From NCBI GenBank assembly GCA_012744395.1, contig JAAYCB010000095.1:1-39829 (forward strand): a DNA stretch of 39,829 nt, read 5' to 3'. Positions 1,176 to 8,387 of this stretch are shown piece after piece. The notes beneath the pieces were generated by a model. It saw only the letters and a list, made by a program, of their open reading frames with translations. It made no database searches and had not been told where the DNA came from. Made by a program: the position numbers and the translations under genes. Within the stretch, counting starts at the first letter, position 1; each line of letters opens with the position of its first letter. Source of the DNA: Pirellulaceae bacterium (GTDB lineage Bacteria > Planctomycetota > Planctomycetia > Pirellulales > Thermoguttaceae).

Positions 1176-3011
1176 GTGGAACTACATCCAAACAGGATCT
1201 ATCAGGGCGACTGCGTCCAGCGGATGGAGCAGCTTGGGGAAGGGAAGATCGACCTGGCATTTGCCGACCCTCCGTTCAACATCGGTTACGATTACGACGT
1301 CTACGAGGACCGTGTCGAGCACCGGGAATACATCGAGTGGTCGTCGGCGTGGATCGGCTGCGTTTACCGCGTTCTCAAGCCGCAGGGCGCTTTCTGGCTG
1401 GCGATCGGCGATGAATATGCCGCCGAGTTGAAGCTGGCCAGCCAGAAGATCGGCTTTCACTGCCGGAGCTGGGTGGTCTGGTACTACACATTCGGCGTCA
1501 ACTGCGCCAGGAAGTTCACCCGTTCCCACGCCCACCTGTTTCATTTCGTCAAAGACCCGGTCAACTTCACCTTCCGCGACGAAGACCTGGACAACCGCGT
1601 GCCGTCCGCCCGCGAACTCGTTTACAATGACAAGCGGGCGAACCCCCGCGGCCGCCTGCCCGACGACACCTGGATTATTCGCCCCGCCGATGCCGTGGGT
1701 GAAATCATCGGCGACGACGCGACGTGGTCGCCGGCCCTCCTCGACCCTCCGAGCGACAAGGATCGGACGTACACGCTCCGGCCGCAGGACCTGGCCGATT
1801 GCTTCAGCGTGTCGGAGAATACCTGGTATTTTCCCCGCGTGGCCGGCACCTTCAAGGAGCGGGCCGGATTCCACGGTTGCCAAATGCCCGAGCAGCTTCT
1901 CGGGCGGATCATCCGCACGTGCTCCCATCCGGGCGACCTTGTCCTCGATCCATTCTCGGGCAGCGCCACGACCTTGGCCGTGGCCAAGAAGCTCGGCCGC
2001 CGCTACCTCGGGTTCGAACTGTCGCGGGAGTACGTCAAGTGCGGGCGGGCGCGGCTTGCTTCGATCCGCGTTGGCGATCGTCTCGACGGTTCCCCCGAGC
2101 CGCTCAAAAGCGCGCCAACAACCGGCAGCAAAGGCCGCAAACAGACCGCCGCCGGGGCCGGTCGGCGGAACTCTCCGCCCCCTCTCTTCGCCCAGAACGA
2201 GCAGGCCAGGGAACAGCGATACGACGAAATCCAACTCGAACTGACGCTCCGCGGCGTGGTGGAAGCCTTCCAGAAGACGCACGAGGGGTTTTCCGCCGAC
2301 CGTGTCGTCGCCGATCCGGTTCTGAATCAGCAGTTCGTGTCGACCTGCCAGCAGCTCGGGCTTGCGGGCGATCCGCGGACGTGGAACACACTCCTCTTCC
2401 GGCTGAGAAAGGCGGGCAAGCTCGCCGATATCGACACCGCCCGCTGGACGACCGTCGCCTGGGAAGACTGCGACGACTACCTGTTCGCCAGCGAGATCGC
2501 GCTTCAGCAGATGCTCGACGAACAGTTGGCCCGGAGCCTCGATGAAATCCTCTGCGATCCGGCGCTGGCGGGCAAGTTCGACGCCGCGGCGGCGGCCCTG
2601 GCCCCCGGATACGCGCCGCTCGACTATCGCTGGGCGGCGCTGCGGCTGAGGAAGGTCGCCAAGCAAGCGCGGAGCCGGGCGGCCGTGCTCATCCCCCCAA
2701 GACTCGGGCGGATGATGCCGCTTGAAGAGTTCCAGCCGAAGACACAGCCGGACTGTTCCGGTCTGTATCTGCTCAGCGAAAACCGGTCACGGAAACTCTA
2801 CGCCGGCGAGACGATGAGTCTGCGCCGCCGGCTCACGCTCCAGTTCGGCAGAAAGCAGCGGGCCGCCTGGTCGCGCATTTCCGAGACCCTGCTGATCCAG
2901 GTCCTGCCGATGGACTCATCGGCGGCCGGCAAGCTCGCATGGCAGAGTTGCCTGGTGCGGAAGTTCAAGGAGCGCCCGCGGCTGAACTATTTCGAGCTTC
3001 GCTCGGCCTGA
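1176..3011 (+). CDS. Beta-class DNA methyltransferase fused to a GIY-YIG-like C-terminal domain
   Basis: Predicted site-specific amino-methyltransferase (N6-adenine or N4-cytosine) using S-adenosylmethionine. The catalytic motif DPPF is at residues 31-34 and the SAM-binding motif DPFSGSAT near residue 258. That order, catalytic before SAM-binding, is the beta class that includes CcrM and HinfI methylases. A basic linker and a helical, winged-helix-like segment (about 340-500) follow. The C-terminus resembles a GIY-YIG domain: GLY at 529-531, YAG at 542-544, an arginine-rich helix (SLRRRL), and a final helix in which the residue aligned with the catalytic glutamate is Gln590. The frame is open from 1119, but the GTG at 1176 is preceded by GGAG at 1164-1167 with ideal spacing and gives a typical methylase N-terminus, so it was preferred. 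No separate restriction endonuclease gene is adjacent; it may be an orphan methylase. Confidence 0.85.
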   Translation: MELHPNRIYQGDCVQRMEQLGEGKIDLAFADPPFNIGYDYDVYEDRVEHREYIEWSSAWIGCVYRVLKPQGAFWLAIGDEYAAELKLASQKIGFHCRSWVVWYYTFGVNCARKFTRSHAHLFHFVKDPVNFTFRDEDLDNRVPSARELVYNDKRANPRGRLPDDTWIIRPADAVGEIIGDDATWSPALLDPPSDKDRTYTLRPQDLADCFSVSENTWYFPRVAGTFKERAGFHGCQMPEQLLGRIIRTCSHPGDLVLDPFSGSATTLAVAKKLGRRYLGFELSREYVKCGRARLASIRVGDRLDGSPEPLKSAPTTGSKGRKQTAAGAGRRNSPPPLFAQNEQAREQRYDEIQLELTLRGVVEAFQKTHEGFSADRVVADPVLNQQFVSTCQQLGLAGDPRTWNTLLFRLRKAGKLADIDTARWTTVAWEDCDDYLFASEIALQQMLDEQLARSLDEILCDPALAGKFDAAAAALAPGYAPLDYRWAALRLRKVAKQARSRAAVLIPPRLGRMMPLEEFQPKTQPDCSGLYLLSENRSRKLYAGETMSLRRRLTLQFGRKQRAAWSRISETLLIQVLPMDSSAAGKLAWQSCLVRKFKERPRLNYFELRSA

Positions 3012-6661: not shown

Positions 6662-7081
6662 TCAGCGCGATGCGGCCGTGCCTGTGTTTCTCCGGCCGAC
6701 GGCGGGCTTCCGCCGCCCCTGGCGCTGGAGGTATTCTCGCAACGCGGTGGCGTTGTTGTGTTCGCGGTCGTTGGCCGCGAACAGCAGCGTCACCGTGCGG
6801 CTGCCGCACAACTCGGCCAACTCCCGCCAGGCATCGGGCTGCGCATCGAGTTCGGCGAAATAGCGCCTGCGGAATTCCTCCCAACGGTTGGGGTCGTGCT
6901 GGAACCAGCGGCGCAAATCCGTGCTCGGCGCGAGGCGCTTCAGCCACCGGTCGATCTTGAGGTCCTCTTTCTTCAGACCCCGCGGCCACATCCGGTCAAC
7001 AAGAATGCGGCAGCCGCCGCGGCCTCTCTCCGGATCATACACGCGAGCGACGAGGATTCTTGCCGCGGCTTTTCTGGTCAT
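6662..7081 (-). CDS. DUF488 family protein (YeaO-like)
   Basis: The N-terminal part contains the DUF488 hallmark RILVDRMWPRG (residues 25-35), followed by WLKRLAPSTDLRRWFQHDPNRWEEFRRRYFAEL and the core strand VTLLFAANDREHNNA. These all match the small YeaO-type proteins of unknown biochemical role. At 139 residues it is about 20 longer than usual, because of a basic tail after the last helix (GRRKPAVGRRNTG). ATG 7081 has AGGAG 11 nt upstream on the minus strand; the open frame further upstream is arginine-rich and unconvincing. It lies 115 bp downstream of the carbonic anhydrase-like gene on the same strand and may be cotranscribed with it. Confidence 0.8.
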   Translation of the reverse strand: MTRKAAARILVARVYDPERGRGGCRILVDRMWPRGLKKEDLKIDRWLKRLAPSTDLRRWFQHDPNRWEEFRRRYFAELDAQPDAWRELAELCGSRTVTLLFAANDREHNNATALREYLQRQGRRKPAVGRRNTGTAASR

Positions 7082-7196
7082 GGCGACTGACTCCTCTGGC
7101 GCGGTCTCCGCCCGCGCGCCGCCGGCGCGACGAAGGGCAATTCGCGCCTTGCCACGTGCCCGCCGCCGCCTGCTGCGGACGCATGCTTTCTTCCAT

Positions 7197-7790
7197 CTAT
7201 CCCTTGACGCCCATGGCTTTTGCGCTGTTGACCCGTTCGCTGAGGCGAAAGTGCGGGCGACGGAGCGCCATCCGCTCGACTTCCCAGACATAGCCGTGGA
7301 TCGAGACATCGTCCGGAATCAGGGGGCACTCCCGCAACAGCTGCACCTGCCTGGCGCACGTTTCATCCACATCGTCGAACATGCGGATCCACTTGGAGAA
7401 CGCATCCGGCGGAAGCGTCAATTCGCGCACCGCCGGGTCGAGGGCAACCTGCTCCGGATCGATCCCCTTCTCGCGCAGCGCGGCGGTGAGGAATTCCCCG
7501 CTCGCGGTCATCATGCCGCACTCGGTGTGGTTGATCACGATGATCTCCTTGGTGCCGAAAAACTGCGTCGTGAGCATCGCCGACCGGATGGCGTCGTCGG
7601 TCACCAGGCCGCCCGCATTGCGAAACACGTGGGCGTCGCCATCCCGGATGCCCAGCGCCTGGTTGACCGGGATCCGTTCGTCCATACAGGCCAGCACGAA
7701 GAGGCGGCGATTGTTGGGGATGCCTCGTTGGCGGCGCAGCGCCCAAGCCTCGCGTTCGGCCAGTTCCAGCTCAATCTGTTGATGCAGCAT
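7197..7790 (-). CDS. Beta-class carbonic anhydrase-like protein
   Basis: Predicted zinc enzyme interconverting CO2 and bicarbonate. The beta-class ligands are in place: Cys35 with the Asp37/Arg39 dyad in ACMDERI, and His88 and Cys91 in HTECGM. The sequence GDAHVFRNAGGLVTDDAIRS matches the short Rv1284-type subclass. At 197 residues it is somewhat longer than that subclass, with an extra helical N-terminus. ATG 7790 was chosen because upstream sequence in the open frame (to TTG 7889) is low complexity; no good Shine-Dalgarno is visible for either. A promoter with a consensus -35 lies upstream, overlapped by a palindrome next to the divergent Rrf2 gene, which suggests control by that regulator. 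Confidence 0.85.
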   Translation of the reverse strand: MLHQQIELELAEREAWALRRQRGIPNNRRLFVLACMDERIPVNQALGIRDGDAHVFRNAGGLVTDDAIRSAMLTTQFFGTKEIIVINHTECGMMTASGEFLTAALREKGIDPEQVALDPAVRELTLPPDAFSKWIRMFDDVDETCARQVQLLRECPLIPDDVSIHGYVWEVERMALRRPHFRLSERVNSAKAMGVKG

Positions 7791-7882
7791 TTCCGGGACC
7801 CCGTTCTTCAAGGAAAGATGGAGCGGCTGCGTGCCGCGGATGCATCCGCCGCGGCCTCCCGGGCCGCGCGGCGTCCGCCCGC

Positions 7883-7912
7883 TCGACAAACATGTACCTA
7901 CAGGTGTACAAT
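7883..7912 (+). promoter_or_regulatory. Sigma-70-type promoter for the Rrf2 gene
   Basis: TCGACA (7883-7888) and TACAAT (7907-7912) are separated by 18 bp; each matches 5 of 6 consensus bases. The palindrome lies between and over them, as expected for an autorepressed gene. Confidence 0.4.
7893..7910. promoter_or_regulatory. Palindromic operator candidate between carbonic anhydrase and Rrf2 genes
   Basis: TGTAC-N8-GTACA is a dyad with 5-bp arms (7893-7897 and 7906-7910), containing a second nested dyad ACCT-N2-AGGT (7896-7905 region). It sits over the predicted start site of the carbonic anhydrase promoter and inside the spacer and -10 of the Rrf2 promoter. Its position and symmetry fit an Rrf2-family operator giving autoregulation and control of the divergent gene. 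Binding is inferred. Confidence 0.5.
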
Positions 7913-7913
7913 A

Positions 7914-7941
7914 ATCGTAGCGCAGACGACCTGGATGTCAA
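7914..7941 (-). promoter_or_regulatory. Sigma-70-type promoter for the carbonic anhydrase-like gene
   Basis: On the minus strand TTGACA (7941-7936) is followed after 16 bp by TACGAT (7919-7914). The -35 is perfect and the -10 matches 4 of 6. The predicted transcription start near 7907 falls within the palindrome at 7893-7910. Confidence 0.45.
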
Positions 7942-7967
7942 GTTGTAGAATCTCCGGGAGGCCGACG

Positions 7968-8387
7968 ATGCTTCACAAAACGACCGAATACGCTCTGCGG
8001 GCGGGACTCTACCTGGCCGGCCATTTCGGCCGGTCGCCAACCCGCCGGGAGATCGCCAAGGCAACGCATATTCCCTCGCGTTATGTGTACAAGGTCCTCC
8101 AGTCGCTCGTACGTGCGGGGCTGGTTCGTTCCGAAGTCGGCCGGGGGGGCGGATACTCTCTGGCGAGGGAGCCGGACGGACTGACCCTCTGGGATATCGT
8201 GGCGGCCACCGCTTCGGTGGAGCGGATTTGCGCGTGTCCCCTGGGCCTGGAGTCCCATACCAGTCTTTGCCCGCTGCATCGGCAGCTCGACGCGGCGTAC
8301 GCCGCCCTGGAGGATGCGTTGCGGCAACGGACGCTGGGCGACGTGCTGCGGGACGCCAGCCCGATCGTACCCTTCTCACCATGTTGA
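7968..8387 (+). CDS. Rrf2-family transcriptional regulator, probable Fe-S sensor
   Basis: A 139-residue winged-helix regulator with the typical Rrf2 opening MLHKTTEYALRAGLYLA, the recognition region IPSRYVYKVLQSLVRAGLVRSEVGRGGGYSLAR, and the wing-to-dimerisation sequence LTLWDIVAA. Cysteines at 88, 90 and 101 lie where IscR, NsrR and RirA bind an iron-sulphur cluster, although the spacing (C-x-C-x10-C) is not that of IscR; Cys139 is the last residue. It may therefore sense iron, nitric oxide or redox state. ATG 7968 has GGGAGG upstream. The gene is divergent from the carbonic anhydrase-like gene across a palindrome, and ends 20 bp before the glycoside hydrolase, so those two may be cotranscribed. 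Confidence 0.9.
   Translation: MLHKTTEYALRAGLYLAGHFGRSPTRREIAKATHIPSRYVYKVLQSLVRAGLVRSEVGRGGGYSLAREPDGLTLWDIVAATASVERICACPLGLESHTSLCPLHRQLDAAYAALEDALRQRTLGDVLRDASPIVPFSPC

Follow-up and report, generated by a model that had tools for sequence, protein, structure and literature searches.

Which function could a nuclease-like domain have in a DNA methyltransferase when this domain lacks its catalytic glutamate, and from where did it come? The question is raised by a gene near the start of the window, which is the whole stretch of 39,829 nucleotides from a Pirellulaceae bacterium that was analyzed here. A first-pass annotation of this DNA had read the product as a methyltransferase with a built-in dead GIY-YIG nuclease and had offered two options: the domain may be used for DNA recognition, or the protein may be a decayed single-chain restriction-modification (R-M) enzyme.

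The methyltransferase domain

The reading frame and its methyltransferase features are as follows.

1176 to 3011, plus strand: gene for a predicted methyltransferase with fused helical repeats and a GIY-YIG-like domain; 611 amino acids, GTG start, one open frame, stop codon at 3009 to 3011
1248 to 2039, plus strand: beta-class N6/N4 methyltransferase domain, residues 25 to 288 (Pfam N6_N4_Mtase, PF01555; E 7.8e-49)
1266 to 1277, plus strand: catalytic motif IV, DPPF, residues 31 to 34, read from the sequence and of the type seen in m6A beta-class enzymes
1947 to 1973, plus strand: AdoMet-binding motif I, DPFSGSATT, residues 258 to 266, read from the sequence

Homologues begin to align at about residue 6. 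Motif IV at residues 31 to 34 lies ahead of motif I, which begins at residue 258, and this order is that of the beta class. CcrM and M.RsrI, which have the same motif order, were among the best relatives of solved structure. The best NCBIfam matches of the domain were PRK11524 (E 2e-45) and CcrM (E 1.4e-32), with scores that fell well short of the curated thresholds: 155 bits against 292 for PRK11524 and 113 bits against 830 for CcrM (NF050803). It resembles the YhdJ/CcrM group in the methyltransferase domain and differs from it by a C terminus composed of a helical-GIY-YIG module. Nearly all of the best 80 relatives came from records named Planctomycetota. As judged from sequence and structure model, the product is predicted to be a methyltransferase of the beta class (m6A type) whose C terminus has a GIY-YIG fold.

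The C-terminal module and its missing glutamate

2244 to 2429, plus strand: helical repeat 1, residues 357 to 418, with R411-K412 (hhalign against repeat 2; helices in the model)
2475 to 2675, plus strand: helical repeat 2, residues 434 to 500, with R485-W486 and R492-K493 (hhalign, alignment, model)
2718 to 2993, plus strand: predicted GIY-YIG-fold domain without catalytic Glu, residues 515 to 606 (model; structural matches to UvrC, EndoII and Eco29kI)
2766 to 2768, plus strand: Tyr531 of the GIY motif G529-L-Y531 (among 113 fused homologues, 105 have Y and 7 have F)
2799 to 2807, plus strand: Y542-A-G544, the YIG motif (column of Tyr182 of the stand-alone proteins described below; among 113 fused homologues, 97 have Y and 14 have F)
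2829 to 2831, plus strand: Arg552, conserved arginine of the catalytic type (shared by 104 of the 113 fused homologues)
2943 to 2945, plus strand: Gln590 at the position of the metal-binding Glu (among 113 fused homologues, 83 have Q and none has E)

The two helical repeats aligned with each other in hhalign with a probability of 96 (P 4.3e-9, 28% identity). Conservation and context indicate that this duplicated part is probably the DNA-recognition part of the protein. The structure searches, which were dominated by the GIY-YIG part, returned no convincing match of the repeats to a known fold.

The Pfam GIY-YIG match of the window protein was below the threshold (E 0.068, residues 528 to 554), and the fold assignment comes from a model of residues 320 to 611, built from 94 relatives, with a mean pLDDT of 95.1 and a pTM of 0.90. 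Foldseek placed UvrC GIY-YIG domains at the top, with weak E values (best 0.55) and a probability of 0.94. A second aligner superimposed residues 515 to 606 on the UvrC GIY-YIG domain with a Z score of 6.5 (2.8 Å, 87 residues), followed by T4 EndoII (Z 5.5) and R.Eco29kI (Z 4.9), while unrelated rows remained at Z 3.9 or below. By these alignments the domain has the fold of the GIY-YIG superfamily, as the first-pass annotation had proposed. A chance resemblance was rejected in view of the structure model and because homologous proteins match the Pfam family significantly. The likeness to the GIY-YIG domains of UvrC and I-TevI is one of fold; the window protein differs from both by the glutamine in place of the metal-binding glutamate and by other partner domains.

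The spacing that had been reported for the motif, GLY, ten residues and YAG, was found as described, from G529-L-Y531 to Y542-A-G. The residues Tyr, Tyr, Arg and Asn of an active enzyme are present as Y531, Y542, R552 and N604, and the alignment likewise upheld the earlier claim that the metal-binding glutamate is replaced by Gln590. The annotation had also asked whether homologues have E or Q at this position. Among 113 fused homologues the column contained Q 83 times, K 10 times, R 9 times, A 5 times, a few other residues and never E. A first alignment with 78 fused homologues had given Q in 64, K in 6, R in 5, A in 2 and C in 1, with E in 16 of 16 stand-alone proteins, and in the larger set each of the 19 stand-alone paralogues that have a residue in this column had E. 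The asparagine was kept in 110 of the 113 fused homologues and the histidine, mostly gone, in 20.

No conserved alternative glutamate was seen in the alignment of the fused homologues. Two candidates in the window protein were rejected: E599 is situated in a two-residue insert absent from the homologues, and E545, adjoining YAG, also occurs where homologues have kept the Glu site intact. The insert, Glu-Arg at residues 599 to 600 (positions 2970 to 2975), precedes a conserved PxLN motif. Neither an unrelated fold nor another glutamate in the proper place, either of which would be at odds with the first-pass reading, was thus found. Private decay or a sequencing error at residue 590 was also dismissed since glutamine is the usual residue of the fused homologues; on this alignment, loss of the glutamate is an old trait of these proteins and not a decay private to the window. 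The second option of the annotation, a decayed single-chain R-M enzyme, finds no support in this form, since the glutamate was absent from every fused homologue found.

An intact paralogue downstream of the methylase in relatives

In some relatives, a gene of about 250 codons directly 3' of the methylase gene encodes a paralogue of residues 357 to 611 of the fused protein. It comprises the C-terminal module in full, with both helical repeats and the GIY-YIG domain, and R411-K412, R485-W486 and R492-K493 are near-invariant in fused and stand-alone proteins alike. All 17 aligned stand-alone proteins contained Y172, Y182, R192, H196, E237 and N249, which is a full Y-Y-R-H-E-N site and matches the catalytic set of Eco29kI, Y49-Y76-R104-H108-E142-N154 (PMC3161791). 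The structure model of the stand-alone protein matched I-TevI (Z 9.6), EndoII (Z 8.7) and UvrC (Z 7.7) more clearly than did the fused copy, and four of five stand-alone proteins exceeded the Pfam GIY-YIG cut-off, with the fifth just below. The nuclease of the relatives is predicted to be catalytically intact, so that a stand-alone version apparently works beside the dead one. In a PADLOC scan, the matches of the nuclease were weak and partial.

A nuclease gene was found directly downstream of the fused methylase gene in 19 of 103 decidable loci, which are those with at least 1,000 readable bases downstream or with a nuclease seen; the 19 include L114, L118 and L155, whose nucleases duplicate those of L035, L070 and L037. 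The stop codon of the methylase gene overlaps or abuts the start codon of the nuclease gene, with an overlap in most loci (ATGA or TAATG). Counted as distinct proteins, 19 of 20 stand-alone nucleases followed a fused methylase. The exception, L161 (L168:4467-5420), is a divergent stand-alone module with an intact glutamate away from a methylase gene, and the methylase of this genome is encoded elsewhere on the same 3.8-Mb contig. The statement of the annotation that no nuclease partner is adjacent is therefore correct for the window but not for the family, in which 19 relatives have an intact paralogous gene directly downstream.

For 13 pairs of fused and stand-alone proteins, the distances of the helical parts were correlated with 0.73, compared to 0.52 with the methyltransferase domain; this is suggestive only, and shared descent alone may explain the correlation.

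The closest known arrangement is that of the type IIP system Eco29kI, in which the stop and start codons of the GIY-YIG nuclease gene and the methylase gene overlap (PMC3039593). R.Eco29kI and M.Eco29kI share with the relatives the overlapping genes and, in the stand-alone proteins, the same catalytic residues. Moreover, the crystallized inactive variant of Eco29kI is E142Q (entry 3mx4), the substitution present in most fused copies. The gene order differs, however: the nuclease gene precedes the methylase gene in Eco29kI, while here the methylase comes first and holds the dead nuclease copy and the helical repeats. No description of a dead nuclease copy inside M.Eco29kI was found in the literature searched. 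Slx1-like GIY-YIG proteins of Lactobacillales are, according to the available part of PMC1564403, fused to a class-I methyltransferase and resemble the window protein in having methyltransferase and GIY-YIG domain in one chain; as given there, they differ from it since they join a COG4123 methyltransferase to an Slx1-type nuclease instead of containing a DNA beta-class enzyme. This part of the source contains no description of a dead nuclease in these fusions.

Distribution of methylase, module and nuclease

No nuclease partner adjoins the methylase gene in the window. A search of the whole genome, which is 98% complete, with an intact nuclease returned the fused copy and one chance-level match only, and a hidden nuclease in the same genome was rejected on this result. 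The type II linkage of methylase and nuclease genes is consequently absent from the window and its genome and present in the 19 related loci. A mobile origin was also discarded: plasmid and phage records contained no match, and no relative was confirmed in viral contigs. Other genes in the window encode a Sir2-family deacylase (PF02146; 5359 to 6105, minus strand), two genes downstream of the methylase gene, a DUF488 protein (6662 to 7309, minus strand) with a best match to the "inactive DUF488-N3" subclade, a carbonic-anhydrase-like protein (PF00484; 7197 to 7889, minus strand), and, adjoining the latter, an Rrf2-type regulator (PF02082; 3' part of 6888 to 8387, plus strand).

In a census of the order, the methyltransferase was present (E 1e-50 or better) in 133 of 147 genomes, the module in 45 and the module fused to the methylase in 43. 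The intact stand-alone nuclease occurred in six genomes, all of them among the 43. A sparser sample of the phylum at a stricter threshold contained the module in 16 of 392 genomes. Two of the 45 module genomes carry only another type of fusion, in which the same helical and GIY-YIG module is joined to a ribbon-helix-helix domain of the HicB type (PF05534, match above the cut-off). Such fusions were seen in L119, L120, L122, L145 and L146, and the catalytic glutamate was absent in four of these five planctomycete proteins. Thus the module is also seen, with its nuclease function missing, next to a different DNA-binding domain.

The nuclease was found only with the methylase, and the methylase often without the nuclease, as a restriction pair predicts. 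Two other explanations need to be considered with respect to these numbers. The dead domain may be a regulatory or dimerization partner, which restrains the intact nuclease or makes a nicking enzyme with it, and copies without a nuclease would be leftovers. In its favor, the fused and stand-alone proteins are paralogues from overlapping genes, and R.Eco29kI is a homodimer on DNA (PMC4081073). This explanation is nevertheless judged unlikely, because no nuclease was seen downstream in 84 of the 103 decidable fused loci, no intact stand-alone copy was detected in 37 of the 43 genomes with a fused methylase, and purifying selection acts on the dead domain even in loci without a nuclease seen, as described below. 

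Alternatively, the stand-alone nuclease may be a nicking enzyme of the repair type that acts at or near methylated sites, as Vsr does beside Dcm, with the fused copy helping to place the methylase. Vsr is an optional companion of Dcm. The nuclease is optional in the same way, and the near-universal presence of the methyltransferase in the order is what a housekeeping methylase would show. The active site of the nuclease, however, has every residue of the GIY-YIG set on which restriction enzymes rely, and its occurrence in the census only together with a fused methylase is an asymmetry expected if the nuclease is harmful alone. A repair function is accordingly regarded as improbable.

Phylogeny and selection

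Evaluation of the trees needs to consider that these were quick trees and that the mark of the tool for SH-aLRT support is 95. The tree of the module was built after removal of the Glu and His columns. One of its branches, with an SH-aLRT support of 94, set all fused copies apart, and another, with a support of 90, did so for the intact stand-alone nucleases. Loss of the glutamate between stand-alone and fused proteins required one change on this tree. The presence of the nuclease, on the other hand, changed at least 14 times among the 76 fused rows. The methyltransferase-domain tree showed short forms scattered among fused ones, with nine changes, of which at least three were forced by well-supported branches. 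If the fused copies have one origin, these quick trees would point to the short forms as products of module loss.

Thirty close pairs of fused methylases, none of them from loci with a nuclease seen downstream, yielded dN/dS ratios of 0.02 to 0.22 for the dead GIY-YIG part where computable, 0.01 to 0.11 for the methyltransferase and 0.02 to 0.11 for the helical part. Purifying selection in loci without a nuclease seen means that the dead domain is kept without the nuclease, which argues against a functionless vestige under relaxed selection. A vestige could account for the loss of the glutamate and, mostly, of the histidine, and also for the loss of the whole module in some relatives, with the interspersed short and fused forms and the forced changes mentioned above. 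It is nonetheless very unlikely in view of the low dN/dS ratios, the glutamine in 83 of 113 copies, the near-invariant Y, G, R and N residues and the well-packed structure model.

The use of the dead GIY-YIG domain for DNA recognition, the first option of the annotation, is the better supported of the two, in view of the mostly kept glutamine, the conservation of the fold and of Y, Y, R and N, and the purifying selection. Most short relatives, with about 300 amino acids, do not have the module and methylate, if at all, without it, which indicates that the module is not essential for all enzymes of the family.

A proposed origin as the modification half of an R-M pair

The gene of the window probably encodes the modification enzyme of a type II-like R-M pair of planctomycetes, with the dead paralogue of the GIY-YIG nuclease of this pair as its C terminus and with the nuclease lost in this genome; this explanation is held with moderate confidence. 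It suggests that one DNA-recognition module is common to the cutting and the protecting halves and that this genome has lost part of the system. The helical repeats would read the target site, and the GIY-YIG part, a pocket with Tyr and Arg but without the metal ligand, would hold the DNA backbone while the N-terminal domain methylates an adenine at the bound site. The stand-alone nuclease of the relatives would cut the unmethylated site via the same recognition module. The nuclease gene would have been lost repeatedly, also from the genome of the window, where the methylase would persist as a solitary enzyme that still needs the dead domain for DNA binding. Against this explanation stand the short relatives that do not have the module, the support of 90 to 94, just below 95, for the split between fused and stand-alone proteins in the trees, and L161, a divergent nuclease away from a methylase.

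GIY-YIG restriction enzymes, beta-class methylases and solitary methylases are already known. The literature searched, with most of the subscription literature outside its scope, reports no methylase that contains a dead version of its own nuclease, and a search of likewise incomplete coverage gave no paper that treats the relatives in planctomycetes or a DNA methylase with a dead GIY-YIG domain. The literature searched contained no methylation motif or function for the methyltransferase family present in 133 of the 147 genomes; a Kuenenia methylome paper lists motifs, none of them linked to this family.

Type II nucleases and their methylases usually recognize the same site with unrelated folds. 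For the planctomycete family a different arrangement is put forward as a tentative proposal, with slightly less than even confidence: methylase and nuclease would read the same site with one homologous module, the methylase copy would have lost its glutamate once at its origin, and the specificities would co-evolve. The steps from an R-M pair via a methylase with a dead module, as in the window, to a bare solitary methylase would still be visible across the Planctomycetota. If this is true, a shared homologous module, disarmed in the methylase copy by a conserved change from glutamate to glutamine, would let both specificities change together, and the phylum would offer a series in which the path from an R-M pair to a solitary methylase can be followed.
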